Positions 8,682 through 27,411 of a stretch of DNA of 64,000 nucleotides are shown here, piece after piece. Each line of letters starts with the position of its first letter. Position 1 is the first letter of the stretch. Where the stretch lies: NCBI RefSeq assembly GCF_000973625.1, contig NZ_CP007501.1, forward strand, positions 1,612,001 to 1,676,000, in the 5' to 3' direction. The DNA is from Polynucleobacter duraquae (GTDB taxonomy: Bacteria > Pseudomonadota > Gammaproteobacteria > Burkholderiales > Burkholderiaceae). The notes beneath the pieces are model-generated. The model had not been told where the DNA came from. It saw only the letters and a program-made list of their open reading frames with translations, and searched no databases. Position numbers and translations under genes: made by a program.

Positions 8682-9383
8682 CTATTTAAGCCAAGTTGTA
8701 AATTCATCTGCACTAACGCGAGGAGTATGAAATGTATTTACTAATTCATGTTGATCCGCATAACCCAATGCCATACCGCATACCAGCATTTCATTCTTAT
8801 TTGCCCCAATTAGCGGCAAGATAATTTTGGCGTAGTCATTCCAAGCAGCTTGTGGGCAAGTAGCGAGCCCTTCGCCTCTTGCTGCGATCATAATATTTTC
8901 CAAAAACATTCCGTAGTCGAGCATTGAACCTCTTCCTAGCTCTTTATCTATAGTAAAAAACAGGCATACCGGCGCACCAAATGCCTCAAAATTCTTACGA
9001 TGCTGGGCATGCATCTTCTCTTTGTCGCCCTTGGTTATTCCTAGTAGTCCATACAGACCCCATCCATTCTCACGACGCCTGTCTATGTATGGGCTAAACC
9101 ATTTACTTGGGTAATAGTCATACTCCGATTGATACTCCAGAGCTAAATCAGGATTAATGGCTATATTGTCATAGGCAGCACATACCTTTGTACATAAATC
9201 CTGCAATATATCTCCCTCTAGCGCATAAACTTTCCAAGGCTGAGTATTCGTTCCAGATGGAGCGCGAGCAGATAGATTGAGGATACTCATAACTATATCC
9301 CTTTCAACCGGATCTTTTGTAAATGCTCTTACGGACATTCTAGATTTGATCGCATCAGATACGGATTTAGATTTCATTTTCAA
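8682..9383 (-). CDS. Nitroreductase-family flavoprotein
   Basis: An FMN-dependent NAD(P)H oxidoreductase of the nitroreductase fold, 233 aa, usually a homodimer. The FMN-binding segment SRMSVRAF and the [11 protein letters not shown] motif are near the N-terminus, and the [11 protein letters not shown] region is present. It is the last gene of the operon, overlapping the preceding gene by 4 nt, and is followed by the operon terminator. Family members reduce nitro groups, quinones or activated double bonds. In this context reduction of an unsaturated ring or enoyl intermediate is plausible but not shown. Confidence 0.85.
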
Positions 9384-9985
9384 TTTTGCTTTTTGAATGT
9401 AATTAATGGTTTATTGCTAGGTAAGTTAAAAGTCTTTCTATCAGACTCCACCTTAGATAGTGGAGTGCAGATCTTAAGGCTATTTAGGCTACGTCTAGTA
9501 AGTTCCTTGTACATATCCGTACCCTCTATTTTCCAAGCCATCTCTGCATCACTTAACTCACGCATAACTTTTGCCGGCATTCCCCCTACCAGCATTTTTG
9601 CGGGCACAACCATTCCAGCCTTAACAAATGCGCACGCAGCCACAATTGATGATTCCCCAATTTCCGCGTTATCCATAATGACTGCATTCATTCCAATTAA
9701 TGCATTTTTACGCACAATACAGCCATGTAAAACAGCAGCATGTCCAATATGACCATCTTCCTCAACCAAAGTATCAGTCTCTGGAAATCCATGCAGAACG
9801 CAGGAATCTTGAATATTGACTCCAGCCTCTAGAATAATGCGCCCAAAATCACCCCTAAGAGCAGCAAATGGTGCGATATAACAGTTAGGGCCAATTAATA
9901 CATCGCCAATAACAACTGCCTCTGGATGCACAAAGGCACTAGGATGTACGACTGGCTTAATACCGTCTATTTCATAAAAGGGCAT
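9380..9985 (-). CDS. PaaY/CaiE-like hexapeptide-repeat protein
   Basis: A left-handed beta-helix protein of the gamma-carbonic-anhydrase/PaaY group, 201 aa, expected to be a trimer. Hexapeptide repeats run from about residue 15 to 140, with putative zinc histidines in VLHGF, GHAAV and LHGC. E. coli PaaY has been described as a thioesterase that relieves CoA sequestered in dead-end esters. A similar housekeeping role for a CoA-ester pathway fits this operon. It lies 1 nt after the SSADH gene and overlaps the nitroreductase gene by 4 nt. A carbonic anhydrase role is the alternative. Confidence 0.8.
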
Positions 9986-9986
9986 A

Positions 9987-11444
9987 TTAAGCTGCCGCCT
10001 TAATTCCGCCCATACAAAGATATTTAATTTCTAAGTAGTCCTCTATTCCATGCTTAGATCCTTCGCGGCCTAATCCACTTTCCTTTACTCCACCAAAAGG
10101 AGCAACTTCAGTAGAAATTAAGCCTTCGTTAATACCAACCATTCCGTACTCAAGGGCCTCTGCAACACGCCAAATTCGACTGATGTTTTGACCATAGAAA
10201 TATGCAGCCAATCCAAACTCTGTATCGTTTGCCATCTCAATAGCCTCTGCTTCAGAAGAAAACTTGAATACTGGAGCAAGTGGGCCAAAAGTTTCCTCTC
10301 TAAAGGCCAGCATATCTTTGGTGGCACCTGATACAACAGTTGGTTCAAAGAAAGACTTACCCAATGCATGGCGCTTACCACCTATAACAAGCTTTCCACC
10401 TTTATTTATTGCATCATTAACATGCTCTTCTACTTTGGCCAAGGCTTTGTCATCAATTAGTGGACCAATAATGGTCCCATCTTCGGCACCATTTCCCACT
10501 TTTAAAGTACTTACAGCTTTAGCTAGTTTTTCAACAAATGCATCATAGATAATATCTTGCGCCATGATCCTGTTAGCACATACGCAAGTTTGACCCGCAT
10601 TCCGATATTTTGAAATGATTGCACCCTTAACAGCTTCATCCAAATCAGCGTCATCAAAGACAATAAATGGCGCATTGCCACCCAACTCCATCGAAGTCTT
10701 TTTAACTGTAGTAGCGCACTGAACCATCAGCAACTTGCCAATTTCAGTAGACCCAGTAAAGCTCAACTTCTTGACTATTGGGTTAGAAGAAAGTTCACCC
10801 CCGATTTCAGCGGCAGATCCAGTGACACAGGAGAACACACCAGCAGGAACACCCGCCTCCTCGGCCAACTGACAAAGAGCTAGAGCACTAAATGGAGTCT
10901 GGCTTGCAGGCTTTAATACGATGGTGCACCCAGCTGCTAAGGCAGGGCCCACCTTACGAGTAATCATTGCAGCAGGAAAATTCCAAGGCGTAATCGCCGC
11001 ACATACACCAATAGGCTGCTTAATAACGACTAAACGTTTATCGGCACCGTGCGGCGGAATGGTTTCACCATACACACGCTTAGCCTCTTCACCAAACCAC
11101 TCAATAAACGAGGCCGCATAAGCAATTTCACCCCGACTCTCAACCAAAGGCTTGCCTTGTTCAGCAGTCATTAGTTGTGCAAGGGATTCCTGGTTTTTCA
11201 TAATAAGATCAAACCAATTACGTAGAATCTTAGCCCGCTCTTTTGCTGTTTTATCTCGCCATGCTGGCAATGCTTTATTGGCACACTCAATTGCTCTTCG
11301 TGTTTCAACTACTCCCATTTTGGGGACTGTACCAATTAGATCACCAGTAGCGGGATTAGTTACCTTGATAGTCTCTTTACTATCAGCATCAACCCATTGG
11401 CCATCAATGTAGGCTTTTTCAAACTTGAAAGGCAAGTTACTCAT
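9987..11444 (-). CDS. gabD: NAD(P)-dependent succinate-semialdehyde dehydrogenase
   Basis: An aldehyde dehydrogenase of the GabD group, 485 aa, oxidising succinate semialdehyde to succinate. It has the catalytic Cys in GQTCVCANR, the general-base Glu in MELGGNAPF and the cofactor loop [10 protein letters not shown]. Typical GabD starts and ends are present. In this operon, with a lactonase and an Fe-dependent alcohol dehydrogenase, it could finish a 4-hydroxybutyrate route. It might also oxidise an aldehyde formed upstream. The assignment to the family is firm; the substrate in this organism is inferred. Confidence 0.88.
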
Positions 11445-11498: not shown

Positions 11499-12245
11499 TT
11501 AGGTCATGCTAAATCCACCGCTAATGCTGATAATTTGACCGGTAATCCAACTACCCGCGTCAGAAGCCAAAAGTACAACCATAGGAGCAACGTCTGCAGG
11601 AGTGCCAAGTCTTCTTAATGGGTAAAACTTAGTGAGTTTTTCACGATTAGCCTCTATAAATGCAGGATCATGAGCTGTTTCAATTAAGCCTAATGCAATC
11701 GCATTAGCAGTCATGCCGGAACGTGTTTCACGCGCCAAAGATTTCATTAAAGCCACGTTACCTGCGCGAGTTGCTGCAGCCAAAGCCAATCCCGATTCAC
11801 CGACACGTGATGAATCCCCGACGATTGAAATAATTCTACCGTTACCTTTTTCAAGATAAGGCAAAGCAGCATGGCAGCAATTGAGGGTTCCATAAAAACA
11901 AACATCAGTTTGCTGGCGCCACTCTTCCGGGGTGGAATCAATAAACCGCTTTCTAAAAACTAACCCTGCATTATTTACGAGGATATTTAATCCTCCAAAC
12001 TCTTCTACAGTTTTAGCAACCATCGCCTTAACTGAATCTATATTAGAGATGTCGCAACCAATAGCCATTGCCCTGCCGCCAAGATCTTGAATTTCTTTAA
12101 CTACAGCTTCGGCGCGCTCTTTTGATCCGTTGTAATTAACTACTACTGCTGCACCATCAGCTGCTAAGGCAAGCGAAATTTCACGACCCACATCACGCGC
12201 GCCACCAGTAATAAGAGCAACTCCTCCCGTAAGATCTGTCTTCAT
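11499..12245 (-). CDS. SDR-fold protein lacking the catalytic Ser-Tyr-Lys
   Basis: A 248-aa short-chain dehydrogenase/reductase fold, FabG-like over its whole length. The cofactor loop TGGARDVGREI (about residues 13-23), the NNAG motif (91-94) and the C-terminal GQIISISGG are intact, so NAD(P) binding should be kept. Alignment by eye to FabG puts Gly143, Ala156 and Arg160 where the catalytic Ser, Tyr and Lys belong. The protein therefore probably cannot act as a classical SDR. It may have a different reaction or a structural role. It is preserved in frame within a tight operon. Confidence 0.8.
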   Translation of the reverse strand: MKTDLTGGVALITGGARDVGREISLALAADGAAVVVNYNGSKERAEAVVKEIQDLGGRAMAIGCDISNIDSVKAMVAKTVEEFGGLNILVNNAGLVFRKRFIDSTPEEWRQQTDVCFYGTLNCCHAALPYLEKGNGRIISIVGDSSRVGESGLALAAATRAGNVALMKSLARETRSGMTANAIALGLIETAHDPAFIEANREKLTKFYPLRRLGTPADVAPMVVLLASDAGSWITGQIISISGGFSMT

Positions 12246-12273: not shown

Positions 12274-14673
12274 TTAATTTTTATTAATTAGCTGAAAAAT
12301 ACGCTCTGGAGTCACGGGAAGCTCATTCACCTCACACCCAAAACTAGATAACGCGTCAGTAACTGCATTCGCAATTGCAGCTGGAGCACCAATAGTGCCG
12401 CCCTCTCCCACACCTCTGAAACCTCCAAGCGTATTAGGAGCTTTAATATCCATGTGAACTATCTTGACATCAGGTATTTCAAGGGCGGTAGGAATTGCAT
12501 AATCTACCAAGCTAGCTGTAAGTACTTGCCCAACTTCGTCATACACAACCTCTTCTAGCAATGCCGCTCCGATTCCCTGTGCAACCGCACCTCGAATTTG
12601 TCCATCAACGATCAATGGATTAATCATTTGCCCGCAGTCTTCCGCAATGACATACCTCTTGATATCCACTTTAAATGTAATTGGATCTACCTCAACCTCA
12701 ACCATATGAGTAGCGCTACTCGTGGTACCAAAAATTGGGTCATATGTTTTGGTAACAGTTAATTCCAATCTATGATCAGCAGGAATTCTGCCCATCTCCG
12801 AGTACACGGTTTTAGCCAATTTAGAAAAATCAATACTATTTGATGCGCTTAATTGCTCGATCGAGCTATTCATAAAGCGCAAATCCTCAACACTAGTATT
12901 AAATAAGTATGCGGCCATAGAGGCCATCCGACTCTTCAACTCCTGCGCAGCTAATATGCCTGCACCGCTACTAAGCACTGCTGTTCTGCTAGCATAACTA
13001 CCAGTTCCATGTGGAACTGCTGAACTATCGCCCGTAATAACGCGAATATCCTGAATCTTGGCACCTAATTCATCCGCCACCACTTGAGCTAATGTAGTTT
13101 CATGACCTTGACCATGTGCAGCACATCCAAATGCAGCAGTGATTGCGCCAGTTGAATCTAAAGAAATGATGCACGTATCTGTGCCAGTATTGATCGGCAT
13201 TCCAGGTGATGCTGAAATTTTCGAACCAATTCCAGAGAGTTCTGCGTAAGAGGCAACACCAATACCGACCCATCTACCTTCAGCTCGAGCTTTAGATTGA
13301 TACTCTCGTCTTTCGTTATAAGAAAATGCTTCACCAGCTGCTACCAATCCTTCGGTAAATGCTGACTTATCCCAAACAATGCCACTCGGGGTTTTGTATG
13401 GAAACTCTTCGGGGCGAACCATATTTTTTAACCGCAGTTCGACTGGATCCATACCCAGCTTTTTTGCAGCCATATTCATCAAACGCTCCATCACAAAAGT
13501 GGATGTAGGTCTGCCAACACCACGATATGGACCTGTTGGCGCCTTTGGTGTAGTCACTGCAATCACACTGCCATGATATGCGGGCACACGATAAGGTCCC
13601 GGCATAAAACTAATAATCTGAACTGGCTCTATACCTGCTGTCCAGGGATAGATAGAGTAGGCACCAATATCGCTAATCACCTCAGCAGCTAATCCCAAGA
13701 TATTTCCCGAGGCATCAACAGCTAATCGCGCCTTAATACGCTCATCAAATGCCTGACTTGTGGAAATTAAATCCTCAAGGCGATCCCCTGTCCACTTGAT
13801 AGATTTTTGGACCTTTTTTGCCAAAGCGCAAACAATCATTTCTTCGGGATAGAGGGATGTTTTGCCTCCGAAACCACCACCGACGTCTGGTGAAGTAACG
13901 CTTAATTGGCTACCAGACATATTCAATAGTTCAGCCAAAGCATCGCGAATAATTCCTGGTACCTGACTTGATGTGTAAAGCTTAATAGCGCCCCTACTTT
14001 TTTCATAGTCCGCAAGGTAAACCCGGTTTTCCATTGCTACAGAAGTTTTTCGATGAAAACGGAACTCCGCCTCAATTAATGCGTGAGGGCTCTCAAATGC
14101 CCGATCAACTTCACCTTTAACAAAAGATCTCTTAACTAATATATTGCTAGTTAAATCTTCATGTAATAAAGGAGCATTAGGTTGACTGGCCTTAATTGGA
14201 TCAAACTCAATAGTCAAAGGCTCCAAAGTTACCTCTAATAAATTGAGTGCATCTTCTGCAATATATCGACTAGACGCCAAAATCACCGCAATAGGCTCAC
14301 CTACATAACGAACTACGCCATTAGCCAATGGATAAATTACTGTTGACTGGTAGTCGGCCATCCTAGAAAAAGCAACTGCAGGTTTAACCTGATCGGCAAT
14401 ATCCTGCCAGGTATAGACACCGTAGACGCCAGGAAGTGCTTTAGCTTCCTCAGTATTGATTGATAGTACTTTTGCATAAGGCTTATCACTACGATAAACA
14501 CTCATATGCAAAATATCGCCAAGCTCAATATCGTCAACATATCTACCCATGCCACAAAGTAAGCGCGCATCTTCAGTGCGACGAACAGGCTGACCAACCA
14601 GACGTTCCCCTGAGCCACTTTTCACAGGCTCATATCCTCGCTCATGCACTAAGGACGAAAAAACCTTACTCAT
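12274..14673 (-). CDS. Molybdenum hydroxylase large subunit (CoxL/XDH family)
   Basis: The molybdopterin-cytosine-dinucleotide-binding subunit of a three-part xanthine-oxidase-family hydroxylase, 799 aa. Cofactor motifs GGGFGGK, PYRGVGRP and GQGHETT are present. The catalytic Glu lies in GVGEGGTIG near the C-terminus. The active-site loop is not the AYxCSFR of true CO dehydrogenase, so the substrate is organic. The ATG at 14673 is chosen because it overlaps the lactonase stop by 8 nt and starts the family-typical N-terminus; an in-frame start at 14766 would run far into that gene. It probably hydroxylates a ring carbon next to a heteroatom or carbonyl, using the CoxS and CoxM partners. Confidence 0.88.
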   Translation of the reverse strand: MSKVFSSLVHERGYEPVKSGSGERLVGQPVRRTEDARLLCGMGRYVDDIELGDILHMSVYRSDKPYAKVLSINTEEAKALPGVYGVYTWQDIADQVKPAVAFSRMADYQSTVIYPLANGVVRYVGEPIAVILASSRYIAEDALNLLEVTLEPLTIEFDPIKASQPNAPLLHEDLTSNILVKRSFVKGEVDRAFESPHALIEAEFRFHRKTSVAMENRVYLADYEKSRGAIKLYTSSQVPGIIRDALAELLNMSGSQLSVTSPDVGGGFGGKTSLYPEEMIVCALAKKVQKSIKWTGDRLEDLISTSQAFDERIKARLAVDASGNILGLAAEVISDIGAYSIYPWTAGIEPVQIISFMPGPYRVPAYHGSVIAVTTPKAPTGPYRGVGRPTSTFVMERLMNMAAKKLGMDPVELRLKNMVRPEEFPYKTPSGIVWDKSAFTEGLVAAGEAFSYNERREYQSKARAEGRWVGIGVASYAELSGIGSKISASPGMPINTGTDTCIISLDSTGAITAAFGCAAHGQGHETTLAQVVADELGAKIQDIRVITGDSSAVPHGTGSYASRTAVLSSGAGILAAQELKSRMASMAAYLFNTSVEDLRFMNSSIEQLSASNSIDFSKLAKTVYSEMGRIPADHRLELTVTKTYDPIFGTTSSATHMVEVEVDPITFKVDIKRYVIAEDCGQMINPLIVDGQIRGAVAQGIGAALLEEVVYDEVGQVLTASLVDYAIPTALEIPDVKIVHMDIKAPNTLGGFRGVGEGGTIGAPAAIANAVTDALSSFGCEVNELPVTPERIFQLINKN

Positions 14674-15427
14674 AAAAAGCTGGTCCCTTACGCATGGATT
14701 GCCACTGGGCATCGTCATGTCCAAATAAAATCTTTGCACCGCCCGATTGAATGCGCCTAACCTCAACCATGGATGCCAAAGATAGGTCTGGATTCCATGT
14801 ATTTTTAGGATTAAGTTCCAAATCTAAATTTGCCTGCATTGGGACAGCATCTGAGGCCAATAAAAAGGAGCCATCTTTATCTAAATTCACCATGGCGCCT
14901 ATCATTCCAGGTGTGTGACCTGGCAAGGGAAGTAACACAACTTTGCCATTACCAAGCAGATCATATTGACCGGTGATAGTTTTAATTTCGTTTGCATGCT
15001 TCCAATCTTTAGGGATGTAACCTTTTTGTAAGCCATCTTCAGCTTGTGCAGCTTCTAATTCAAACAAATGACAAAAAATAGTAGCGCGCTTAAAAAATTC
15101 ATTACACCCACAATGATCTGAGTGGAAATGTGAATTTATAACAACATCAATATCATCTGGTTTGAGGCCTACAGAGTCCAGCTGTGTTATTAAATTATCT
15201 TGTGGCGAATTTATTGGGACCATTACTTTTGCCATAGAACCCCAACGATCTTCAGCATTTTTAGCTACTGAAGGATGGCACCCAGTGTCAAATAAGATAT
15301 TGCCCTGCTCGTGACGAATGAGATAACAGGTTACTGGTAACTCAATAGTTTCAGTTTTTTCAGCAGCAGGCAAATACACACTCTTACGCATTTTTAAGCG
15401 ACCGCCTGATAACGCGTGCATTTTCAT
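14666..15427 (-). CDS. Metallo-beta-lactamase-fold lactonase
   Basis: A 253-aa dinuclear-zinc hydrolase of the AiiA/AttM (BlcC) N-acyl-homoserine/gamma-butyrolactone lactonase group. The zinc ligands are complete: the SHFHSDH motif, the His in PGHTPG, the Asp in LASDAV and the last His in FGHDD. No signal peptide is seen, so it acts in the cytoplasm. It is embedded between molybdenum-hydroxylase subunit genes, overlapping coxS by 4 nt and coxL by 8 nt. A lactone made by that hydroxylase is therefore a more likely substrate than a quorum signal. Confidence 0.85.
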   Translation of the reverse strand: MKMHALSGGRLKMRKSVYLPAAEKTETIELPVTCYLIRHEQGNILFDTGCHPSVAKNAEDRWGSMAKVMVPINSPQDNLITQLDSVGLKPDDIDVVINSHFHSDHCGCNEFFKRATIFCHLFELEAAQAEDGLQKGYIPKDWKHANEIKTITGQYDLLGNGKVVLLPLPGHTPGMIGAMVNLDKDGSFLLASDAVPMQANLDLELNPKNTWNPDLSLASMVEVRRIQSGGAKILFGHDDAQWQSMRKGPAFYE

Positions 15428-15954
15428 AATGACCGCTCCGTTCTAGGTGAGATATCCTCAATGCTGATAACACCAGCATCACGTTTACGAGCACATTCCC
15501 GAACGGCATCAACAATCCCTTGATACCCCGTACAGCGACAAAGATTTCCGGACAATAGCTCTCGGATTTCTTCGTCAGTTTTTAAAGGGTACTTTTGCAG
15601 CATCTCAGTGGAAGTCATCAGCATTCCAGGTGTACAAAATCCGCACTGAAGACCGTGATTCTCATTAAACGCTTTTTGCAATGGATTGAGATTATCAGGA
15701 GAGCCTAAGCTTTCAACAGTGCAAATTTCTAAGCCGTTAGCCTGAACCGCAAGCATTAAACACGATCTTGAGCTGGCACCATCCACTAAAATAGTACATG
15801 AGCCACATACACCATGCTCACAGCCCACATGAGTGCCAGTTAATCCTAAATTGATACGTAAATAATCAGATAGCAATAGCCTTGGATCAACCAGATCTTC
15901 GTGCACTACACCATTCACAATGACCCATAAAGAGATTTTTTCAATTTCACCCAT
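15424..15954 (-). CDS. Molybdenum hydroxylase 2[2Fe-2S] subunit (CoxS type)
   Basis: The small electron-transfer subunit of the molybdenum hydroxylase, 176 aa. The plant-ferredoxin-type cluster is bound by Cys45, Cys50, Cys53 and Cys65. The second cluster uses Cys104, Cys107, Cys139 and Cys141 in the all-helical C-terminal domain. All eight ligands are intact. It passes electrons from the Mo centre of the CoxL-type subunit to FAD in the CoxM-type subunit. It lies 1 nt after coxM, consistent with a fixed complex. Confidence 0.93.
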   Translation of the reverse strand: MGEIEKISLWVIVNGVVHEDLVDPRLLLSDYLRINLGLTGTHVGCEHGVCGSCTILVDGASSRSCLMLAVQANGLEICTVESLGSPDNLNPLQKAFNENHGLQCGFCTPGMLMTSTEMLQKYPLKTDEEIRELLSGNLCRCTGYQGIVDAVRECARKRDAGVISIEDISPRTERSL

Positions 15955-15955: not shown

Positions 15956-16828
15956 TTATTTCTCTATAGTCGCCTTATTCCATGCGGATTTAAAATTTCT
16001 CTTGAATAACTGTCCAGCTAAATGCAGACGGTACTCAGAAGATGCATGTAAATCTGTATTAGGCATAAGAAAATCACCTAAACTTTCTCGAACCGTTTCT
16101 AATAATCCATCAGAATAAGTCTGGCCATTAAGGCGCGACTCGATAGAATCAAGCCTTAAAGCAGTCTCGCCAACGCCCATCATGCTTATCTTGACATTTT
16201 GAATTCGGCTATCCGCGTCTTTATCTACCAATACACCAACTGCTGCCAGGGCAAAATCGCCATCACGTTGTGCAAATTCTTCAAAAGCCCAACCAGTGTG
16301 AGCCTTCAATTTTGAAAACTGAATTTGCGTCAATATTTCATCTTCAGCCAAAACAGTAGACAATGATCCTGCAAAAAATTTATCAGCCTGAATAGTGCGC
16401 TTTTGATCTATAGATTCACAATATATTTTTGCATCGAGCAAAAGACATAACATGGGATATTCGGCCGCAGGATCAGCATGAGATAAGCTGCCGCCAATCG
16501 TTCCACGATTACGAATTGCAAGATGAGCTACATGTTTTAAGGCTTCATGCATTACGGGTAAATCTTTTTTAACAAGATTGGAACTTGCCACCGCGCTATG
16601 ACGAGTAAGAGATCCAATCGTAATTTGATCACCCTCTTCTCGAATAAAATCAAGTTCAACTAACTTCCCAATATCAATTAATAACGATGGCTGAACCACC
16701 CGAAAATTCAGCATGGGCATCAAGCTTTGGCCGCCAGCTATGACTTTGGCATCATCTGAGTGGCGTAAATGTTGTAACGCCTCCTCTAAAGAGTACGCGC
16801 AAAGATAGTTAAACGGAACTGGTTTCAT
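15956..16828 (-). CDS. Molybdenum hydroxylase FAD subunit (CoxM type)
   Basis: The FAD-binding medium subunit, 290 aa. The N-terminal motif AGGQSLMPML binds the pyrophosphate, and the family signature RNRGTIGGSLSHADPA is present. The C-terminal CO_deh_flav_C-type domain follows. Its start codon overlaps the stop of the upstream gene (TAATG), a coupling signal. No [4Fe-4S] insertion like that of 4-hydroxybenzoyl-CoA reductase is seen, which argues for an oxidising hydroxylase rather than a ring-reducing enzyme. Confidence 0.92.
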   Translation of the reverse strand: MKPVPFNYLCAYSLEEALQHLRHSDDAKVIAGGQSLMPMLNFRVVQPSLLIDIGKLVELDFIREEGDQITIGSLTRHSAVASSNLVKKDLPVMHEALKHVAHLAIRNRGTIGGSLSHADPAAEYPMLCLLLDAKIYCESIDQKRTIQADKFFAGSLSTVLAEDEILTQIQFSKLKAHTGWAFEEFAQRDGDFALAAVGVLVDKDADSRIQNVKISMMGVGETALRLDSIESRLNGQTYSDGLLETVRESLGDFLMPNTDLHASSEYRLHLAGQLFKRNFKSAWNKATIEK

Positions 16829-18790: not shown

Positions 18791-19935
18791 AAAGCCTCTC
18801 TATATAGTTGTGCAGCATCATTCAAAGTAATTTCACGGGGGCTATTTTGCAATAACCTCGTTTGAAGCATCGCATCTGTAGCCAATTGATCTACATCTTC
18901 CGCAGTGATGCCTACCTCAACCAATCTTTGTGGCAAACCTAGTGCACCTGCAAGGCCCCCAAGATAGTTGGCTAGTTGAGTAGCCTGCTCTACGGTTGAA
19001 CCTTGCAAACCAGGTTTGATAATTTGCCCCAGCTCAGCATACATGCTATGTGCAGCCTCCAAATTAAAGCGCATGACAGGTCCAAGCATAAGTGAGTTTG
19101 AAAGGCCATGTGGAACGTGGAATCTTGCACCTATTGGGTAAGCCAATGCATGCACACCTGCTACTGGTGCATTAGTAAAAGCCATTCCGGCGAGACAGGC
19201 GCCTAACAACATGTTTTCGCGTGCATCAATATCGCCACCAGCTTTAACAGCCTGATGAAGATTGCTAGCCAATAAACGTAAAGCCTCCTTGGCCAAGCAA
19301 TCAGAAACAGGATTTTTTAATCGCTTTGTTGTAAAGGCTTCAATAGCATGAACCATCGCATCAATTCCAGTTGCAGCTGTAACATGAGCCGGAAGTCCTA
19401 AAGTTAGTTCGGCATCAAGCAAGGCAACGTCTGGAAGTAATTGAGGGGAAACCACACCCTTCTTCTCACTCTCGCTAACAGTAACAATAGAAATAGTTGT
19501 TACCTCAGAGCCAGTACCCGCCGTTGTGGGAACCAAGATCAAAGGCAAGCGTGGACCTTTGGCCATACCGACGCCATATACTTCTGATAATTTTTCTTTA
19601 CCTGAAGCTAATAGGGCAACTAATTTGGCCACATCCATTGAACTGCCACCACCAAAGCCAATGATGTAATCCGCCTTGGAATCTTGGGCAGCTTTTACAG
19701 CAGAATCAATAACCGATACCGGTGGATCAGCCTGTACATCCGAAAATATTTGTACTGGCAAGCTAATTTCTTTAAATTGGGGCAAAGCCTTTTCTAGTAA
19801 GCCAGCAGATAAAACTCCTGGATCGGTAACAATGAAGGCTGATTTTCCGCCCCTCTCAGCAATTCTTTTAGCAAGATTTCTAGCTCCGCCTCTTTCGACA
19901 AGAATTGAACGTGTTGAGTGAAAGTCAAATTGCAT
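18787..19935 (-). CDS. Iron-containing (group III) alcohol dehydrogenase
   Basis: A 382-aa Fe-dependent alcohol dehydrogenase. The NAD-binding glycine-rich GGGSSMDVAK and the TTAGTGSEVT motif are present. Metal-binding histidines lie in MVHAIEAF and in the GVHALAYPIGARFHVPHG region. Members include 4-hydroxybutyrate dehydrogenases, maleylacetate reductases and butanol dehydrogenases. With SSADH and the lactonase in the same operon, 4-hydroxybutyrate oxidation is a reasonable candidate. Oxidation of a furfuryl- or benzyl-type alcohol is another. Confidence 0.85.
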   Translation of the reverse strand: MQFDFHSTRSILVERGGARNLAKRIAERGGKSAFIVTDPGVLSAGLLEKALPQFKEISLPVQIFSDVQADPPVSVIDSAVKAAQDSKADYIIGFGGGSSMDVAKLVALLASGKEKLSEVYGVGMAKGPRLPLILVPTTAGTGSEVTTISIVTVSESEKKGVVSPQLLPDVALLDAELTLGLPAHVTAATGIDAMVHAIEAFTTKRLKNPVSDCLAKEALRLLASNLHQAVKAGGDIDARENMLLGACLAGMAFTNAPVAGVHALAYPIGARFHVPHGLSNSLMLGPVMRFNLEAAHSMYAELGQIIKPGLQGSTVEQATQLANYLGGLAGALGLPQRLVEVGITAEDVDQLATDAMLQTRLLQNSPREITLNDAAQLYREAL

Positions 19936-19955: not shown

Positions 19956-21497
19956 CTAGATTGCTTCTTTTAATTTAAAGCGCATTACTTTTCCGGAGCC
20001 CGTTCTTGGTATCTCTTTCACCACATGAATTTGCGCAGGAACTTTGTATGAGGAGAGATGGCCTTTTGTAAAATCAATTAGCTCTTCAGCTCCTATTGAC
20101 TTACCATCCCTGAGAACTATAAAAACAACTGGAATTTCTCCGAGATGTTTATGCTCAATTCCAACTGCAGCACAATCTAGAATTGCTGGGTGACGCAGGA
20201 CTGCCTCTTCAATTTCTCCGGGCGCAATATTTTGACCGCCTCGAATAATGAGCTCTTTTAAGCGACCTGTAATAGTGAGATAACCATTAGCGTCTGCTTT
20301 TGCCAAATCACCAGTGTGATACCAGCCATTCTTTAATGCTGCTGCAGTCTCGGTTGGCTTATTGTGATAACCAACCATTACATTTGGGCCGCGAACGATA
20401 AGTTCGCCCTCCTGTCCCGGACCCAAGTCAGCACCGGTAGTAGGATCAACGATTCGAACTGCCACACCAACTACTGGCAATCCACAAGAACCAAGGGTTC
20501 TGCCCCAAACAGGAGAATTCATTGTGACCATTGTTGAGGTTTCGGTAATGCCATATCCGTCTAACAACTTGATGGCAAAAAACTCTTCGAACCCTCTATT
20601 AAGATCTGCTGGCAATATTGCGCCCGCCGAGATACACAAACGCATACCATTTAATTTAACTGCAGAATCTGCTTTTGCAGACTCAAGAATGTAATGGAAC
20701 ATTGTTGGCACGCCAGGAAGGACCGTAAAGTTTCCTGTTTTCAACAAAGTTAATACTTGACTAGATGAGTATTTCTCAACAATAAATTCACTAGCACCGG
20801 CGGCAATAATAGAGAGCACTGAAAAATTCAGAGCATAAGAGTGGAACAAGGGTAACGGCGATAGAACAACATCTTTGTCATTTATCTCAGCAATTGGGAT
20901 CCAGCACGCTGCTACCACCCAAAGCATTGAGCGCAACGTTAGCTGAACACCTTTAGCTTTACCAGTTGTTCCAGAGGTATAAACAATAAAGGCGACTTCA
21001 TCAATGCTAGTTTGAATCTCCTCCTCGACTAATTGAGGAGAATCTGCACAGTATTCAGAAAAATTTTCGCATCCTAATGCCCGATCTTCGTCAACAATGA
21101 TAATTTGAAGACTTGTACCTATCTCATCTTTGAGTCCGCCAAGCAGAGCTAAACGATCTTTAGTTGTGATGATTGCCTTAGCCCCAGAATCGGTAATTCT
21201 GTAACTGACCTCTCCAGGGGCCGCATCATGAGATATTGGAACAGCCACTAAGCCGGAGCGAACTACGCCAAAGCAACTTAATACCCAATTCACTGAATTG
21301 GGTAGATAGATGGCGACCTTATCAGCGCTTAAGAATCCCTGACTTCGAAGCTTTTTGGAAATATTTCCACTTTGACGGTTTAATTCAAAGTAGCTAGCCT
21401 CTTTATAGCTGTCCCAATAGGCTACTTTTGACCCATATTGAACCGCTCTTTGCTCCAAAAGCTTGCCAAGTGGCTTTATTACGTCCGTCTTAATCAT
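19956..21497 (-). CDS. AMP-forming acyl-CoA synthetase
   Basis: A 513-aa adenylate-forming ligase that activates a carboxylic acid with ATP and CoA. The P-loop-like motif YTSGTTGKAKG, the GYGITETS adenylate motif, the WYHTGDLAK hinge region and the C-terminal catalytic Lys in GSGKVMRFK are all intact. It is the first gene of the minus-strand operon, which fits substrate activation as the first step. It diverges from the importer operon across a 310-bp regulatory gap. The acid cannot be identified; a furoate- or aromatic-acid-type substrate is inferred from the downstream genes. Confidence 0.88.
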   Translation of the reverse strand: MIKTDVIKPLGKLLEQRAVQYGSKVAYWDSYKEASYFELNRQSGNISKKLRSQGFLSADKVAIYLPNSVNWVLSCFGVVRSGLVAVPISHDAAPGEVSYRITDSGAKAIITTKDRLALLGGLKDEIGTSLQIIIVDEDRALGCENFSEYCADSPQLVEEEIQTSIDEVAFIVYTSGTTGKAKGVQLTLRSMLWVVAACWIPIAEINDKDVVLSPLPLFHSYALNFSVLSIIAAGASEFIVEKYSSSQVLTLLKTGNFTVLPGVPTMFHYILESAKADSAVKLNGMRLCISAGAILPADLNRGFEEFFAIKLLDGYGITETSTMVTMNSPVWGRTLGSCGLPVVGVAVRIVDPTTGADLGPGQEGELIVRGPNVMVGYHNKPTETAAALKNGWYHTGDLAKADANGYLTITGRLKELIIRGGQNIAPGEIEEAVLRHPAILDCAAVGIEHKHLGEIPVVFIVLRDGKSIGAEELIDFTKGHLSSYKVPAQIHVVKEIPRTGSGKVMRFKLKEAI

Positions 21498-21807: not shown

Positions 21808-23028
21808 ATGTTTAAGAAAAAGTTAATTGCATCGATCAGCATCCTAGCAATGTCATCCGCCATGGTAGCTCCACCTGCTTTCGCTCAAGCGTCAAATGAC
21901 GTAATTCGTATCGGCGTACTTACTGATATGACAGGTCAATTCTCACATGAAGCTGGTGAAGGCTCAGTTGCAGCGGTAAAGATGGCGGTTGAAGATTTTG
22001 GCGGGAAGGTTCTGGGGAAGCCAATTGAAGTGATATTTGCTGACCATCAAAATAAACCTGATATTGGAGCCGCAAAAGCGCGGGAGTGGTACGACAAAGG
22101 CATTGATATGATTGCCGGTCTAATAAACTCAGGGGTCGCACTTTCCGTAACTAACGTTGCAAAAGATAAAAATAAAATAGCAATTATTAATGGTTCGGGT
22201 AGCTCTAAGATCACCAATGAAGGATGTACTCCCGTTAGCATTCATTACGCATACGATACTTATGCGTTAGCTACTGGTACAACAAAATACTTAATCAAAG
22301 AGAAGAATTTAGATACTTGGTATTTTTTAACTGCTGACTATGCATTTGGTCACGCACTTGAGGGCGACGCCACAGCTAGCATTAAAGCATTAGGAGGAAC
22401 GGTAGTTGGTTCTACACGCTACCCAATGGATACTGCAGATCATTCATCCTTCCTCTTAAGAGCACAGGCCTCAAAGGCAAAAGTAGTTGCAATGGCTGGC
22501 TCAGGTCAAAGTTTTATTAACGCTGTTAAATCCTCCCAAGAATTCGGAATAACCAGAGGCGGCCAAACCTTAGCAGGACTATTAGTTTGGGATACCGATG
22601 TTCATGCGCTAGGTTTAAAACAAGCACAAGGCTTGATCATGACTACAGCATTTTACTGGGATAGAACCCCTGAGACTCGTGCATGGTCTAAACGATTCCA
22701 AGATCGCATGAAGCGTATGCCACATATGGGTGATGCTGGTGACTACTCTTCAACTATGCATTATTTAAAAGCGATTCAGGCCGCAGGTACAGATGAAACT
22801 GGTGCAGTAATGGCAAAGATGAAGTCAACACCTATTAATGACTTCTTCGCTACCAATGGACGTATTCGTGAAGATGGTCGTATGGTCCATGATATGTATG
22901 TTTATCAAGTCAAGACTCCTGCTGAATCCAAATACGCATGGGATTACCTCTCAATCAAAGAAACAATTCCTGCAGCACAAGCATTCCGCCCACTTAGTGA
23001 AAGTTCCTGCTACTTGGTAAAGAAATAA
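21808..23028 (+). CDS. Branched-chain-type ABC importer substrate-binding protein
   Basis: A periplasmic binding protein of the LivJ/LivK-like superfamily, 406 aa. The signal peptide of about 27 residues ends AFAQA. The mature N-terminus (IRIGVLTDMTGQFS) and the GPGSVAAV-like helix region match the family used for amino acids, urea and aromatic acids. Strong spacing to a good ribosome-binding site and a following hairpin suggest high expression. It is the first gene of the importer operon, divergent from the CoA synthetase, and so probably captures the acid that the operon degrades. Confidence 0.9.
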   Translation: MFKKKLIASISILAMSSAMVAPPAFAQASNDVIRIGVLTDMTGQFSHEAGEGSVAAVKMAVEDFGGKVLGKPIEVIFADHQNKPDIGAAKAREWYDKGIDMIAGLINSGVALSVTNVAKDKNKIAIINGSGSSKITNEGCTPVSIHYAYDTYALATGTTKYLIKEKNLDTWYFLTADYAFGHALEGDATASIKALGGTVVGSTRYPMDTADHSSFLLRAQASKAKVVAMAGSGQSFINAVKSSQEFGITRGGQTLAGLLVWDTDVHALGLKQAQGLIMTTAFYWDRTPETRAWSKRFQDRMKRMPHMGDAGDYSSTMHYLKAIQAAGTDETGAVMAKMKSTPINDFFATNGRIREDGRMVHDMYVYQVKTPAESKYAWDYLSIKETIPAAQAFRPLSESSCYLVKK

Positions 23029-23090: not shown

Positions 23091-23858
23091 GTGAATTCAC
23101 ATGATGTAATTCTCAATACTCAAGAGCTGACTAAATCATTCAAAGGATTTACTGCAGTAGATAATGTCAACCTATCGGTAGAACGAGGGAGTATTCACGC
23201 TCTAATTGGTCCTAATGGCGCAGGAAAAACCACATGCTTTAATTTGTTGACGAAATTTTTAAGCCCATCATCGGGAAAAATATTTTTCAATGGACTTGAT
23301 ATTACCAATGAGAAGCCCGCTCAAATCGCAAGAAGAGGTGTAATCAGATCATTCCAGATCTCCGCTGTCTTCCCCCACTTAACAGTCTTAGAAAATGTAC
23401 GTGTAGCCTTGCAACGTGGACTAGGGACTGAGTTTCACTTCTGGAAACCTGAGTCATCTTTAAATGTTCTCAATGAACGCGCAGAAGAACTATTGGTTGA
23501 AGTAGGGCTGGAAAAATTTACCAATGAAGAAACATTGAACTTAGCATATGGTAGAAAAAGAGCGCTCGAGATTGCAACAACTCTGGCTATGGAGCCCGAA
23601 CTTATGCTACTAGATGAGCCCACACAAGGTATGGGTCATGAGGATGTAGAGCGTGTAACTGAATTAATTGACCGTGTTGCAAAAGGACGTACGATTTTGA
23701 TGGTTGAACACAATATGAATGTTATTGCTTCAATTGCTGATCGAATTACTGTATTGCAACGTGGATCCATATTGGCAGAAGGTCCATACAAAGAAGTATC
23801 TAATAATCCGGCTGTAATTGAAGCTTATATGGGCAGTCACACAGAGGTGACAGTATGA
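23091..23858 (+). CDS. ABC importer ATP-binding protein, LivG type
   Basis: One of two ATPases powering the importer, 255 aa. Walker A is GPNGAGKTT, the signature region is LAYGRKRALEIA and Walker B is LMLLDEPTQG, all canonical. The GTG start at 23091 follows the attenuator hairpin and has only a weak Shine-Dalgarno, consistent with lower translation. It overlaps the second ATPase gene by 4 nt, as expected for a heterodimer. Confidence 0.9.
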   Translation: MNSHDVILNTQELTKSFKGFTAVDNVNLSVERGSIHALIGPNGAGKTTCFNLLTKFLSPSSGKIFFNGLDITNEKPAQIARRGVIRSFQISAVFPHLTVLENVRVALQRGLGTEFHFWKPESSLNVLNERAEELLVEVGLEKFTNEETLNLAYGRKRALEIATTLAMEPELMLLDEPTQGMGHEDVERVTELIDRVAKGRTILMVEHNMNVIASIADRITVLQRGSILAEGPYKEVSNNPAVIEAYMGSHTEVTV

Positions 23859-24559
23859 GCACAAAGGCACTGGAGGTAAAGAATCTACAGTCATGGTACG
23901 GAGAATCTCATATACTGCACGGAATTGACTTTACTGTTGATGATGGTGAAGTCGTTACCCTTCTTGGTAGAAACGGTGCAGGACGCAGCACTACACTTAA
24001 ATCAATTCTCGGCCTTACTGATCACCGTACTGGAGTAGTAAATATTTATGGCTCCGACACTATCGCACTTCCATCTCATAAAATTACATGCCTAGGAGTT
24101 GGCTACTGTCCAGAAGAGCGAGGAATTTTTGCAAGCTTAAGTGCTGAAGAAAATCTTTTGTTGCCCCCAGAAATAGCAGATGGCGGGATGAACTTAGATG
24201 AAATTTACGAGATGTTTCCAAATCTATATGAAAGGCGCCATAGCCCTGGCACACGCCTCTCTGGGGGTGAGCAGCAAATGTTAGCGATGGCGCGGATTTT
24301 AAGAACCGGCGCAAAACTGCTTTTGCTAGATGAGATCACCGAAGGCTTGGCTCCTGTAATTGTCCAAAGGCTTGGGAAAGTGGTCACAAAACTCAAAAAT
24401 CGCGGGTTTACGATTGTTCTGGTTGAGCAAAATTTTCGCTTTGCAGCACCTCTAGCAGATCGACATTATGTTGTTGAGCATGGCAAGATTGTTGAAGTAG
24501 TTAAGAAAAACGAGTTAGCAGCAAAAACAGTATTGCTAAATGAATACTTAGGGGTCTAA
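23855..24559 (+). CDS. ABC importer ATP-binding protein, LivF type, Walker-A Arg
   Basis: The second ATPase of the importer, 234 aa. The ABC signature LSGGEQQ and Walker B LLLLDEITEG are normal. Walker A reads GRNGAGRST, placing Arg44 where the nearly invariant lysine should be. Either this site is degenerate and the partner site does the ATP hydrolysis, or this is a LivF subgroup that tolerates Arg. The gene is intact and sits between the other ATPase and the permeases, so it is not a pseudogene. Confidence 0.88.
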   Translation: MSTKALEVKNLQSWYGESHILHGIDFTVDDGEVVTLLGRNGAGRSTTLKSILGLTDHRTGVVNIYGSDTIALPSHKITCLGVGYCPEERGIFASLSAEENLLLPPEIADGGMNLDEIYEMFPNLYERRHSPGTRLSGGEQQMLAMARILRTGAKLLLLDEITEGLAPVIVQRLGKVVTKLKNRGFTIVLVEQNFRFAAPLADRHYVVEHGKIVEVVKKNELAAKTVLLNEYLGV

Positions 24560-24564: not shown

Positions 24565-25485
24565 ATGTTTGAACTTCTTGGAATTACCCCACAAGGGCTG
24601 GCTGCTCAGCTCTTAGTGGGGCTTATTAATGGCTCTTTCTATGCCATTTTGAGTTTGGGCCTAGCTATTATCTTTGGCTTACTCAACATCATTAATTTTT
24701 CGCATGGTGCTCAGTACACCATGGGAGCTTTTATTGCGTGGATTGGTTTGACTCAAGTTGGCCAATGGTTTGGATTTCCTGATTTCTCAATTAATTATTG
24801 GTTTGCATTAATTTTGGTGCCTTTGGTAATGGCAGGCTTTGGTTTAATTCTTGAGCGCACAATGCTCAAACGCCTATATCACCTTGATCACCTTTATGGC
24901 CTGCTATTAACTTTTGGATTGGCTTTGATTATTGAGGGCATGTTCCGCCATTGGTACGGAATTTCTGGCGAGAGTTATCCGGCACCTGAACTATTACAAG
25001 GCGTTATTCCATTAGAGTCGATTGGCATTATTTTGCCCAAATATCGTTTGTGGGTAGTGATTGCCTCTTTGGTGGTTTGTTTCTCCACCTGGTATGTCAT
25101 TGAGAGAACGAAGTTGGGTTCTTATCTTCGCGCTGGAACTGAAAATCCAAAACTACTTCAGGCGTTCGGCATCAACGTCCCTTTGATGATTTCTTTGGCT
25201 TATGCCTATGGTGTTGGTTTGGCTGGTTTTGCTGGTGTTCTGGCCGCACCTATTTTTCAAGTCAACCCACTGATGGGTTCGAACCTCATCATTGTAGTTT
25301 TTGCAGTTGTCGTGATTGGTGGCATGGGCTCCATCATGGGTTCTATCTTGACTGGCCTCGCTTTAGGTTTGATTGAGGGCTTAACTAAAGTGTTTTATCC
25401 AGAAGCATCTGGCGTGGTTATTTTTGTGATCATGGCAATTGTGTTGCTCATTCGCCCTGCTGGACTTTTCGGCCGGGAGAAATAA
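24565..25485 (+). CDS. ABC importer permease, LivH type
   Basis: An integral membrane permease of the branched-chain amino-acid type, 306 aa with about eight hydrophobic segments. The LLNIINFSHGA region typical of LivH is at about residue 40. It starts 5 bp after the ATPase gene and abuts the LivM-type gene, with which it forms the channel. Its codon choice looks somewhat different from that of the upstream ATPase genes, by eye only. Confidence 0.88.
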   Translation: MFELLGITPQGLAAQLLVGLINGSFYAILSLGLAIIFGLLNIINFSHGAQYTMGAFIAWIGLTQVGQWFGFPDFSINYWFALILVPLVMAGFGLILERTMLKRLYHLDHLYGLLLTFGLALIIEGMFRHWYGISGESYPAPELLQGVIPLESIGIILPKYRLWVVIASLVVCFSTWYVIERTKLGSYLRAGTENPKLLQAFGINVPLMISLAYAYGVGLAGFAGVLAAPIFQVNPLMGSNLIIVVFAVVVIGGMGSIMGSILTGLALGLIEGLTKVFYPEASGVVIFVIMAIVLLIRPAGLFGREK

Positions 25486-26409
25486 GTGAGTTTAAAAATA
25501 AAATTGCTTTATGGCATTTTGGTTTTAATTGCCCTGCTGCTGCCCTTTCAGGACTTTATCTATTTAGTGTTTGCAATGAAGGTGTTGTGCTTCGCCCTTT
25601 TTGCTTGCGCCTTTAATTTGTTACTAGGCTTTACTGGTCTTCTTTCTTTTGGCCACGCCGCCTTCTTTGGAACCGCCGCCTACATTACTGCGTATTTTTG
25701 TAAAGAAGCCGGCCTATCCCCTGAGTTGGGAGTTGTCTTGGGCGTCTTGGGCTCTGGCATTTTAGGATTTTTGATTGGCTCCTTAGCAATTCGTCGTCAA
25801 GGCATTTATTTTGCGATGGTGACATTGGCGCTTTCCCAAATGGTTTACTTTTTGGCGGTACAACTTCCATTCACTGGTGGCGAGGACGGCATTCAAGGGG
25901 TGCCACGTGGCATGCTGTTTGGCTTGATTGATTTAAAAGATGACGTCAGCATGTATTACTTTGTTTTGGCTATTTTCTTGCTTGGATTTGCGCTGATCGT
26001 TCGTACTGTGCATTCTCCTTTTGGCCAGGTTTTAAAAGCTATTCGTGAGAATGAACCGCGTGCAGTTTCTTTGGGTTACGACGTTGACCGTTTTAAGTTA
26101 ATGTCTTTCGTGATTTCAGCCGCCCTCTCTGGTTTGGCAGGGTCGATGAAGTCTTTAGTATTCCAGTTAGCAACGTTGACCGATGTTCACTGGCATATGT
26201 CAGGCGAAGTTGTTTTGATGACCTTATTGGGCGGCATGGGAACCATTCTTGGTCCAGTGGTTGGCGCCGGCATTGTGGTCGGCTTGCAAAACTATTTAGC
26301 CAATATTGGATCTTGGAGCACTATTGCAACTGGATTTATCTTTGTTGTTTGTGTCTTGGCTTTTCGTCGAGGCGTTGTTGGTGAAATTACGGCCATATTT
26401 AAAAAATAG
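25486..26409 (+). CDS. ABC importer permease, LivM type
   Basis: The second permease subunit, 307 aa with about eight to ten hydrophobic segments. The family motif LLGFTGLLSFGHAAFFG is near residue 47, and an EAA-like loop (AIRENEPRA) contacts the ATPase. The GTG start lies directly after the LivH-type stop, indicating translational coupling. The HxlR regulator gene follows after 18 bp. Confidence 0.88.
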   Translation: MSLKIKLLYGILVLIALLLPFQDFIYLVFAMKVLCFALFACAFNLLLGFTGLLSFGHAAFFGTAAYITAYFCKEAGLSPELGVVLGVLGSGILGFLIGSLAIRRQGIYFAMVTLALSQMVYFLAVQLPFTGGEDGIQGVPRGMLFGLIDLKDDVSMYYFVLAIFLLGFALIVRTVHSPFGQVLKAIRENEPRAVSLGYDVDRFKLMSFVISAALSGLAGSMKSLVFQLATLTDVHWHMSGEVVLMTLLGGMGTILGPVVGAGIVVGLQNYLANIGSWSTIATGFIFVVCVLAFRRGVVGEITAIFKK

Positions 26410-26427
26410 TAGAAAATATCACTCATA

Positions 26428-27411
26428 GTGAACAAACTCGCAGAAAACATTGAACCAATCATGGCGGAGGCATGCTCCGTCAGAAGAACAGTCAACATAA
26501 TTGGTGATGGCTGGTCTTTTATGATTCTAAGAGAATGTTACTTTGGCGTACGCCGCTTTCAAGATTTTCAAGAAATCTTAAATATTCCTCGCGGAACTCT
26601 AACGGCAAGATTGAATACGTTGGTTGCTGAAAATATCCTGAGAAAGACAACATCCGACCCAAGTAAAAAACGACTTGAATATAGACTTACGAAACAAGGT
26701 ATTGATTTATATAAAGTGATGATTGCGCTAATGTCATATGGAGATAAGTGGATTGATGCATCTCCAAAACAACCCCTAAAGTTAAAACATAAAATATGTA
26801 ATCACGAATCCCACCCGTTTGTAGGGTGCCCCCATTGCAGACAAGAAATTACTGCCTCAGAAGTTACCTATAGAAATGGGCCAGGATTTGGACTTGAGTC
26901 CGCGTATCCGGGACCTAAACTTCGTAAGTCCGCTGACCCTTTATTGATTGAAAGAAGAAGACCAAGCTCGGTTGCTAGGGCATTACGAACTATTGGGGAT
27001 CAGTGGGGCTTCATGGTGCTTAGGGAGGCATTCTTCAAGGTGAGGCGATTTGATCAAATCCAAGCTAAGCTGGGAATTGCACCCAACACCTTAGCTAACC
27101 GACTTAATCACTTTTTAAATGAAGGTATGTTTCAAAAAGTTCAGTATCAAAGCAATCCAGAGCGCTTTGAATATCGATTGACACCAAAAGGTCGAGCAAT
27201 ATTTTCTAGTTTTATGGCCATGCTTGCATGGGGGGATAAGTGGCTATCCAAAGATGGTCCTCCAATCATATTGAGCCATCAAAAATGTGGGCATGACTTC
27301 ACACCTTTAGTAATGTGCGACTTCTGTAAGAATGAAATTCATGCAAAAGACATGCACTATGACACTGTATATTCCGATCCAAAAAAATCCGTTCAGCACA
27401 CAGACTCATAA
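26428..27411 (+). CDS. Tandem HxlR regulator with two Cys-rich knuckles
   Basis: A 327-aa transcription regulator made of two HxlR-type winged-helix units, residues 14-112 and 178-275. Each unit is followed by a possible zinc knuckle: C124, H126, C134, C137 in the first and C287, H289, C297, C300 in the second. Ordinary HxlR proteins are about 110-150 aa and act as dimers, so this is a fused dimer. It is last in the importer operon and is the obvious candidate to sense the pathway substrate and bind the 21634-21655 inverted repeat. The GTG start is uncertain; ATG at 26461 is an alternative. Confidence 0.82.
   Translation: MNKLAENIEPIMAEACSVRRTVNIIGDGWSFMILRECYFGVRRFQDFQEILNIPRGTLTARLNTLVAENILRKTTSDPSKKRLEYRLTKQGIDLYKVMIALMSYGDKWIDASPKQPLKLKHKICNHESHPFVGCPHCRQEITASEVTYRNGPGFGLESAYPGPKLRKSADPLLIERRRPSSVARALRTIGDQWGFMVLREAFFKVRRFDQIQAKLGIAPNTLANRLNHFLNEGMFQKVQYQSNPERFEYRLTPKGRAIFSSFMAMLAWGDKWLSKDGPPIILSHQKCGHDFTPLVMCDFCKNEIHAKDMHYDTVYSDPKKSVQHTDS

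Follow-up and report, generated by a model that had tools for sequence, protein, structure and literature searches.

A molybdenum hydroxylase operon of Polynucleobacter duraquae as a candidate cluster for 3-furoate degradation

Results and Discussion

Our analysis of a 64,000-nucleotide window of the Polynucleobacter duraquae genome (positions 1,612,001-1,676,000 of the single 2.03-Mb contig, NZ_CP007501.1) points to a gene cluster for the uptake and complete degradation of an oxygen-heteroaromatic acid. The most likely substrate is 3-furoate, and we consider this reading to be evenly poised between right and wrong. The cluster comprises an operon of 12 minus-strand genes and, divergent from it, a five-gene importer followed by a gene for an HxlR-domain protein, through which the operon would presumably be inducible. 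What can be read from the sequences directly is the gene content, the synteny, the enzyme families, the loss of catalytic residues in two of the enzymes, and a 4-hydroxybutyryl-coenzyme A (CoA) dehydratase homologue in the Bradyrhizobium elkanii version of the cluster. An earlier sequence-only reading had proposed import of a ring acid and its CoA-dependent degradation by a molybdenum (Mo) hydroxylase. The gene content agrees with that proposal, which also listed furan carboxylates as candidate substrates; its 2-furoate template is the part that fits less well.

The operon genes run from 21497 to 8682 in the order acyl-CoA ligase, iron-dependent alcohol dehydrogenase (Fe-ADH), 4HBT thioesterase, CoxG-crotonase (ECH) fusion, CoxM, CoxS, lactonase, CoxL, short-chain dehydrogenase/reductase (SDR), succinate-semialdehyde dehydrogenase (SSADH), PaaY-like protein and nitroreductase. 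The Fe-ADH and thioesterase genes thus sit between the ligase and the fusion. Neighbouring genes overlap or are separated by at most 54 nt, the widest gap being that between SDR and SSADH, and the two divergent arms lie 310 nt apart. The tight spacing, the single terminator at the operon end and the divergent importer with its regulator (21808-27411) are all borne out by the gene calls and by a hairpin just behind the last gene (Table 1). Taken by itself, the terminator scan is weak evidence for the operon end: 22 terminator-like sites were found in 8000-27900 as against 17.0 (sd 3.3) in shuffled sequence. The genes and strands given earlier also hold, with two corrections. The most likely start codon of CoxL is ATG 14673, which overlaps the lactonase stop by 8 nt, and not TTG 14766 of the mechanical open reading frame (ORF); the gene taken as ECH-type encodes a CoxG-crotonase fusion.

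Two enzymes of the operon are atypical. In an alignment to FabG (3sj7), the Ser, Tyr and Lys of the classical SDR triad are replaced by Gly, Ala and Arg. Among the best 120 of 6358 homologues the three positions hold Gly (120), Gly/Ala/Val (64/54/2) and Arg (120), so that the triad is gone in all 120, and every one of these proteins carries the motif GDSSRVGE, GDSSRIGE or GDSSRVGD. In the crotonase domain, aligned to 5z7r, both catalytic Glu residues of enoyl-CoA hydratases are replaced (by His and Ala in the window). They are likewise missing in all of the best 120 of 641 homologues, which have His in 119 and Asn in one at the first position, and Ala in 119 and Ser in one at the second; the crotonase of one further version (L031) has Gly at the first position in the locus alignment. 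The reading of crotonase and SDR as a standard hydratase and 3-hydroxyacyl-CoA dehydrogenase of beta-oxidation was rejected on these lost residues, and the two enzymes probably perform no standard beta-oxidation chemistry. The betaproteobacterial loci seen and the gammaproteobacterial locus L027 encode CoxG and crotonase as one fused protein; in L031 and the alphaproteobacterial loci the two are separate proteins. One record, P0105, shows a natural 4HBT-CoxG-crotonase fusion; it is a single record and may be an artefact, and it fits crotonase and thioesterase acting in consecutive steps.

A node at 4-hydroxybutyryl-CoA is well supported. By curated NCBIfam models the aldehyde dehydrogenase of the window is an SSADH (NF008415, 847 bits, cut-off 828; TIGR01780, 747 bits, cut-off 646). 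Its Cupriavidus counterpart (L016) passes both cut-offs with 852 and 735 bits, and that of Aminobacter (L095) passes one of the two, with 814.5 bits (just under 828) and 722 bits (over 646). The cluster on the B. elkanii plasmid pK07G (L096) ends differently: within the 30-kb plasmid stretch searched, not even a threshold of E 1e-4 brought up a homologue of 4HBT, Fe-ADH or SSADH. Between the genes for the substrate-binding protein (SBP) and CoxG it carries a gene annotated as an HpaB-type hydroxylase, whose product matches vinylacetyl-CoA isomerase/4-hydroxybutyryl-CoA dehydratase structures with 797 bits (6vjr) and 574 bits (1u8v); the best HpaB structure reaches 130 bits. At E 1e-80 or better, seven of 72,556 plasmid records contain this gene; four of the seven (at least 99%) are the plasmids that carry the B. 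elkanii cluster. At E 1e-150, three of the 142 alphaproteobacterial genomes in the sample have it. Thioesterase, Fe-ADH and SSADH on the one hand and the dehydratase on the other are alternative uses of one CoA ester, an indication that this ester is 4-hydroxybutyryl-CoA; with the dehydratase evidence coming from one lineage, the pathway probably passes through this intermediate. In comparison with known pathways that use the dehydratase AbfD, the B. elkanii homologue would receive its 4-hydroxybutyryl-CoA from a ring acid.

The Mo hydroxylase forms a lineage of its own. In a tree of 85 CoxL sequences the 29 cluster sequences (the window counted once) form a single clade with SH-aLRT support of 100; the tree was built by a quick method and several of its long branches are flagged. 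All 29 contain PYRGVGR, mostly inside PTGPYRGVGRP, and none has the active-site loop AYRCSFR of aerobic carbon monoxide (CO) dehydrogenase, which was present in the 15 rows of that type. PYRGVGR also occurs in a CoxL outside the clade (L004, 37% identity) and is not exclusive to the cluster. The operon thus shares CoxM-, CoxS-, CoxL- and CoxG-type proteins with the cox system, from which it differs in the CoxL loop and clade. The closest solved relatives of CoxL by sequence are quinoline 2-oxidoreductase (best), CO dehydrogenase and 6-hydroxypseudooxynicotine dehydrogenase. The excerpted text of PMC13240472 describes CoxG as a protein that binds quinone and carries electrons for CO dehydrogenase; an electron route into the respiratory chain would fit this role.

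Loci for comparison were found by scanning species-representative genomes with the CoxG-crotonase alignment. The best 80 were kept and 25 of them compared ORF by ORF; most others match just in their CoxG part, and searching the collected loci with CoxL gave no further relative of at least 48% identity. Thirty loci were tabulated: 24 from the scan (a 3.3-kb piece, L022, was dropped), five from plasmids and one from genome G456, with the Aminobacter SR38 locus left out. Presence was counted at identity thresholds set gene by gene. The loci were picked by CoxG-crotonase or CoxL, and counts for these genes are partly by construction; several loci end at contig or fetched-stretch borders, and some are near relatives (e.g. 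L018/L019, L023/L024 and L094/L097/L129). With these provisos, a core of CoxG, crotonase, CoxM, CoxS, lactonase, CoxL, SDR, ligase and thioesterase recurs in 25 to 29 loci per gene (Table 1). Regulator, importer, Fe-ADH and SSADH genes are non-core, and the dehydratase (one locus), the PaaY-like gene and the window-type nitroreductase are rare. Recurrence of the same neighbourhood in many genera shows the cluster to be a unit.

The core spans alpha-, beta- and gammaproteobacterial loci, with hosts in Ramlibacter, Paraburkholderia, Cupriavidus, Pseudorhodoferax, Rhodobacteraceae, Pseudohoeflea, Xanthobacter, Aquabacter, Rhizobium, Sinorhizobium, Agrobacterium, Aminobacter and Bradyrhizobium elkanii. 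The rhizobial copies come from plasmid records found with CoxL, and carriers include isolates from bean, soybean and Lotus. The closest named relative among the matches listed is a metagenome-assembled genome of Burkholderiaceae (L013). The cluster is rare. The CoxG-crotonase fusion was found at E 1e-80 or better in one of 150 genomes of the family, namely P. duraquae itself. For CoxL, with E 1e-200 as the limit, two of 398 phylum genomes and two of 399 order genomes (own genome included) had a match, as did one of 390 genomes of the order of G456 (G456 itself). In 24 other genomes of the genus the best CoxL match scored 503 bits (35% identity); the P. duraquae gene itself scores 1,849.

On plasmid p42d of Rhizobium etli CFN 42 (L133, 14877-17080), CoxM and CoxS are partial, the lactonase is full-length (52.6% identity) and CoxL is reduced to pieces of 66 and 26 residues; judged by these fragments, this symbiosis plasmid holds a decayed remnant of the cluster. 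CoxL is broken in Rhizobium acidisoli (L134), too. The lactonase was seen on 42 Rhizobium plasmids, and CoxL at more than 50% identity in at least 19 plasmid records.

From these elements we propose the following route. After ABC import (step 1), the ligase would form 3-furoyl-CoA (step 2). CoxLMS would hydroxylate C2, with CoxG handing the electrons to quinone, to give 2-oxo-2,5-dihydrofuran-3-carbonyl-CoA (step 3). The triad-less SDR would add a hydride to the doubly activated C=C bond, giving 2-oxotetrahydrofuran-3-carbonyl-CoA (step 4), unless it acts after lactone opening. The lactonase would open this ring to 2-(2-hydroxyethyl)malonyl-CoA (step 5), which the glutamate-less crotonase would decarboxylate to 4-hydroxybutyryl-CoA (step 6). 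Thioesterase, Fe-ADH and SSADH would then lead via 4-hydroxybutyrate and succinate semialdehyde to succinate (step 7), and the dehydratase would yield crotonyl-CoA in the B. elkanii variant. The substrate, the regiochemistry, steps 3-6, the electron route and the regulation are what we infer.

The choice of substrate follows chemical reasoning. The gene set calls for a CoA ester, a Mo-dependent hydroxylation, a lactone, a reduction without a strong acid catalyst, a glutamate-free CoA-ester step and a C4 omega-hydroxyacyl-CoA, and on paper 3-furoate would provide all of these. Among the ring acids considered it was 3-furoate that would give exactly unsubstituted 4-hydroxybutyryl-CoA plus CO2 with every core enzyme used. 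C2 of 3-furoyl-CoA should be the electrophilic position beside the oxygen, where hydroxylation would produce an acyl butenolide. Hydroxylation at C5 was considered and set aside in favour of C2: on paper it leads to formylsuccinyl-CoA, with no need for the 4-hydroxybutyrate enzymes. Methylmalonyl-CoA decarboxylase is a crotonase-family enzyme that decarboxylates a malonyl-type CoA ester. The cluster crotonase would share family and reaction type with it and would differ in its proposed substrate, 2-(2-hydroxyethyl)malonyl-CoA, and in its fusion to CoxG in the betaproteobacterial loci seen; the likeness is one of family level and proposed reaction. Lactonase, SDR and SSADH, which the sequence-only reading had listed as unmatched additions together with the PaaY-like protein and the nitroreductase, thus find a place in a route of the 3-furoate type. 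The latter two look like lineage extras because they occur in one and none of the 30 loci at the thresholds used, some loci ending earlier.

Several observations weigh against this pathway. None of the middle-step enzymes has a characterised close relative, and ligase and Fe-ADH exceed the cut-off of no family shown in the NCBIfam comparison; all Fe-ADH models stay under their cut-offs, with the 4-hydroxybutyrate dehydrogenase model at 246 of 500 bits. The lost residues tell what SDR and crotonase do not do, not which reactions they catalyse, and decarboxylation is a step we infer since the best PDB matches of the crotonase profile are hydratases, not decarboxylases. For the B. elkanii dehydratase homologue NCBIfam gives only HpaB models, below cut-off, and the dehydratase-in-cluster case is one lineage: tblastn over the collected loci returned no second independent example, only L096 itself and, at 23% identity, a remote HpaB-type gene of L020. 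The pathway end is not uniform either. Fe-ADH and SSADH occur in 17 and 12 of the 30 loci, some of them incomplete; the L017, L018 and L030 stretches are without close Fe-ADH or SSADH; L027 (21 kb) lacks homologues of ligase, 4HBT, Fe-ADH and SSADH at E 1e-4; and the aldehyde dehydrogenase in the equivalent place of L031 fails the SSADH cut-offs with 278 and 306 bits (the latter of 646). To our knowledge, 3-furoate is not an abundant freshwater or rhizosphere compound. Esters of 3-furoic acid do occur in plants, as described for Maytenus agarofurans in the excerpted text of PMC8347511.

The 2-furoate pathway, named earlier as the closest template, fits less well. Under such a scheme, which we regard as improbable, ligase, CoxLMS, lactonase and thioesterase would lead to 2-oxoglutarate, while Fe-ADH and aldehyde dehydrogenase would oxidise furfuryl alcohol and furfural upstream. 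Judged by the excerpted text of PMC6678421, the hmfABCDE system of Cupriavidus basilensis HMF14 shares with our cluster the CoA ligase, a Mo-dependent furoyl-CoA dehydrogenase, a lactone intermediate and CoA release, and its lactone-opening gene is unassigned or putative; the shared ligase and dehydrogenase and the unassigned lactone opening speak for the scheme. The same text gives 2-oxoglutarate as the product and a five-gene core without SDR, Fe-ADH, SSADH or an assigned lactonase. The P. duraquae operon holds the ligase and a CoxLMS-type dehydrogenase in an order other than hmfABCDE, and its CoxL is probably of a different clade. Its downstream genes point to 4-hydroxybutyryl-CoA and succinate; 2-furoate would, by chemical reasoning, give 2-oxoglutaryl-CoA. 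The aldehyde dehydrogenase is an SSADH by curated cut-off, and the dehydratase of the B. elkanii cluster would have no place in an hmf-type route. Moreover, a separate set near 828-838 kb of the same contig (L122, 820-839 kb, local positions 8307-18136) comprises AraC, a CoxL with a C-terminal CoxG domain, CoxM, CoxS, ligase, an ECH protein and importer genes. HmfE, in turn, is presumably an ECH-family protein. The order large, medium, small subunit, ligase, fifth gene, with AraC as neighbour, matches the hmf locus as far as the excerpted text of PMC6678421 gives it, and because order and content agree, L122 is the likely 2-furoate cluster; 2-furoate is thus probably already served in this genome. 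Its hmfA-like protein, so called by gene order and AraC neighbour, falls outside the 29-row CoxL clade on a flagged long branch, in a tree that holds no authenticated HmfA. The separate hmf-ordered cluster together with the evidence for 4-hydroxybutyryl-CoA led us to reject 2-furoate as first-choice substrate. A third Mo-hydroxylase cluster of the genome (L121, 1234-1253 kb, local positions 7301-18720) includes CoxG, SDR, a TetR regulator, FAD monooxygenase-like and Urate_ox_N-domain genes and an importer; its CoxL has close relatives in several genomes of the genus.

A somewhat unlikely alternative keeps the pathway logic and the 4-hydroxybutyryl-CoA node and changes the substrate to a substituted furan-3-carboxylate, a dihydrofuran acid or another O-heterocycle; CoxLMS would then oxidise some other C-H bond. 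The node constrains only the pathway end, and the PaaY-like protein and nitroreductase of the window could serve substituted substrates; ring substituents, by chemical reasoning, would normally survive into the C4 acid, where SSADH and dehydratase must tolerate them. We give little credence to a nitrogen- or sulfur-containing acid (pyrrole-, thiophene- or pyridine-carboxylate). Mo hydroxylases often act on N-heterocycles and quinoline 2-oxidoreductase is the best PDB relative of CoxL, but none of the 12 operon genes resembles an amidase, deaminase, aminotransferase or sulfur gene, and such substrates would yield amino or thio acids in place of 4-hydroxybutyryl-CoA. Highly improbable is a role in quorum quenching or gamma-butyrolactone use, with lactonase, Fe-ADH and SSADH degrading lactones and the Mo enzyme separate in function. 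These three proteins make up the gene set of the Agrobacterium Blc/AttKLM operon, which likewise has a metallo-beta-lactamase lactonase, an alcohol dehydrogenase and an SSADH ending in succinate; it is not known to include a ligase, Mo hydroxylase, SDR, crotonase or thioesterase. HxHxDH is the metal-binding motif of AiiA/AttM N-acyl-homoserine lactone (AHL) lactonases and is present in the window protein, whose PDB relatives are in the majority labelled AHL lactonases (the top row being labelled beta-lactamase). Against this, the protein stays far below the curated AttM AHL-lactonase cut-off (136.7 bits vs 390), its gene is wedged between CoxS and CoxL with overlapping ends, and SDR, crotonase and lactonase are about equally conserved (28, 28 and 29 of 30).

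Table 1. Features of the cluster and presence of each gene among the 30 tabulated loci.
Feature	Position	Strand	Basis	Loci (of 30)
Intrinsic-terminator-like hairpin with T-tract, operon end	8658-8641	-	just 3' of last stop codon	
Nitroreductase-family flavoprotein	8682..9383	-	Pfam Nitroreductase	0
PaaY/CaiE-like hexapeptide protein	9380..9985	-	TIGR02287 312.6 bits, just below cut-off 319.6	1
SSADH	9987..11444	-	NF008415 and TIGR01780 above cut-off	12
SDR lacking Ser-Tyr-Lys, motif GDSSRxGE conserved; proposed conjugate (C=C) reductase	11499..12245	-	alignment	28
CoxL-type molybdopterin subunit, motif PTGPYRGVGRP	12274..14673	-	start corrected to 14673	28
Metallo-beta-lactamase-fold lactonase (AiiA/AttM-like), metal motif SHFHSDH	14666..15427	-	Pfam Lactamase_B	29
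CoxS-type [2Fe-2S] subunit	15424..15954	-	Pfam Fer2_2 and Fer2	29
CoxM-type FAD subunit	15956..16828	-	Pfam FAD_binding_5 and CO_deh_flav_C	29
CoxG-crotonase fusion, proposed decarboxylase	16828..18315	-	Pfam COXG 5-145, ECH_1 221-393	CoxG 29, crotonase 28
4HBT hotdog thioesterase, proposed 4-hydroxybutyryl-CoA hydrolase	18344..18790	-	Pfam 4HBT_2/4HBT	25
Fe-ADH, proposed 4-hydroxybutyrate dehydrogenase	18787..19935	-	Pfam Fe-ADH	17
AMP-forming acyl-CoA ligase, proposed 3-furoyl-CoA synthetase	19956..21497	-	Pfam AMP-binding 290 bits	26
Peripla_BP_6 SBP	21808..23028	+	Pfam	17
LivG-type ATPase	23091..23858	+	family match	11
LivF-type ATPase	23855..24559	+	family match	13
LivH-type permease	24565..25485	+	family match	10
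LivM-type permease	25486..26409	+	family match	10
Tandem HxlR-domain transcriptional regulator	26428..27411	+	Pfam HxlR, 2 stretches	21

The importer is of the branched-chain type. A strong terminator-like hairpin at 23046-23067 separates the SBP gene from the remaining importer genes and may set a high SBP:permease ratio or act as an attenuator. The PaaY-like protein, which falls just short of its curated cut-off, is a possible housekeeping thioesterase. The gammaproteobacterial cluster version, L027, also has a nitroreductase-family gene close by (19253-20026), and the nitroreductase of the window may therefore be of use to some hosts. Downstream of the operon and on the same strand, 6950-8047 encode a choloylglycine-hydrolase-family amidase. 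The G+C content is 41-43% in the cluster, 46-49% to the right of 28 kb and intermediate (43-45%) in the left flank.

Conclusions

CoA-dependent, Mo-hydroxylase-based opening of furans is a known kind of system; what would be new here is a 3-furoate route with an atypical SDR and an atypical crotonase. That this is an undescribed pathway, in which a triad-less SDR serves as reductase for an acyl-butenolide CoA ester and a glutamate-less crotonase linked to CoxG yields 4-hydroxybutyryl-CoA, and which is spread among bacteria of freshwater, of soil and of plant roots, in part on plasmids typed as conjugative, has in our judgement slightly less than an even chance of being correct. Among the open-access PMC papers listed by our searches there was no gene-level 3-furoate pathway (a report elsewhere is possible), nor anything of use on this genus and furans. 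If the proposal is true, it adds a second CoA-dependent route of furan opening, one that enters metabolism at 4-hydroxybutyryl-CoA, and the triad-less SDR and the glutamate-less crotonase would be two enzyme families with new reactions. The p42d remnant of Rhizobium etli would gain a meaning, and a cluster so far annotated only generically receives a concrete, testable pathway.

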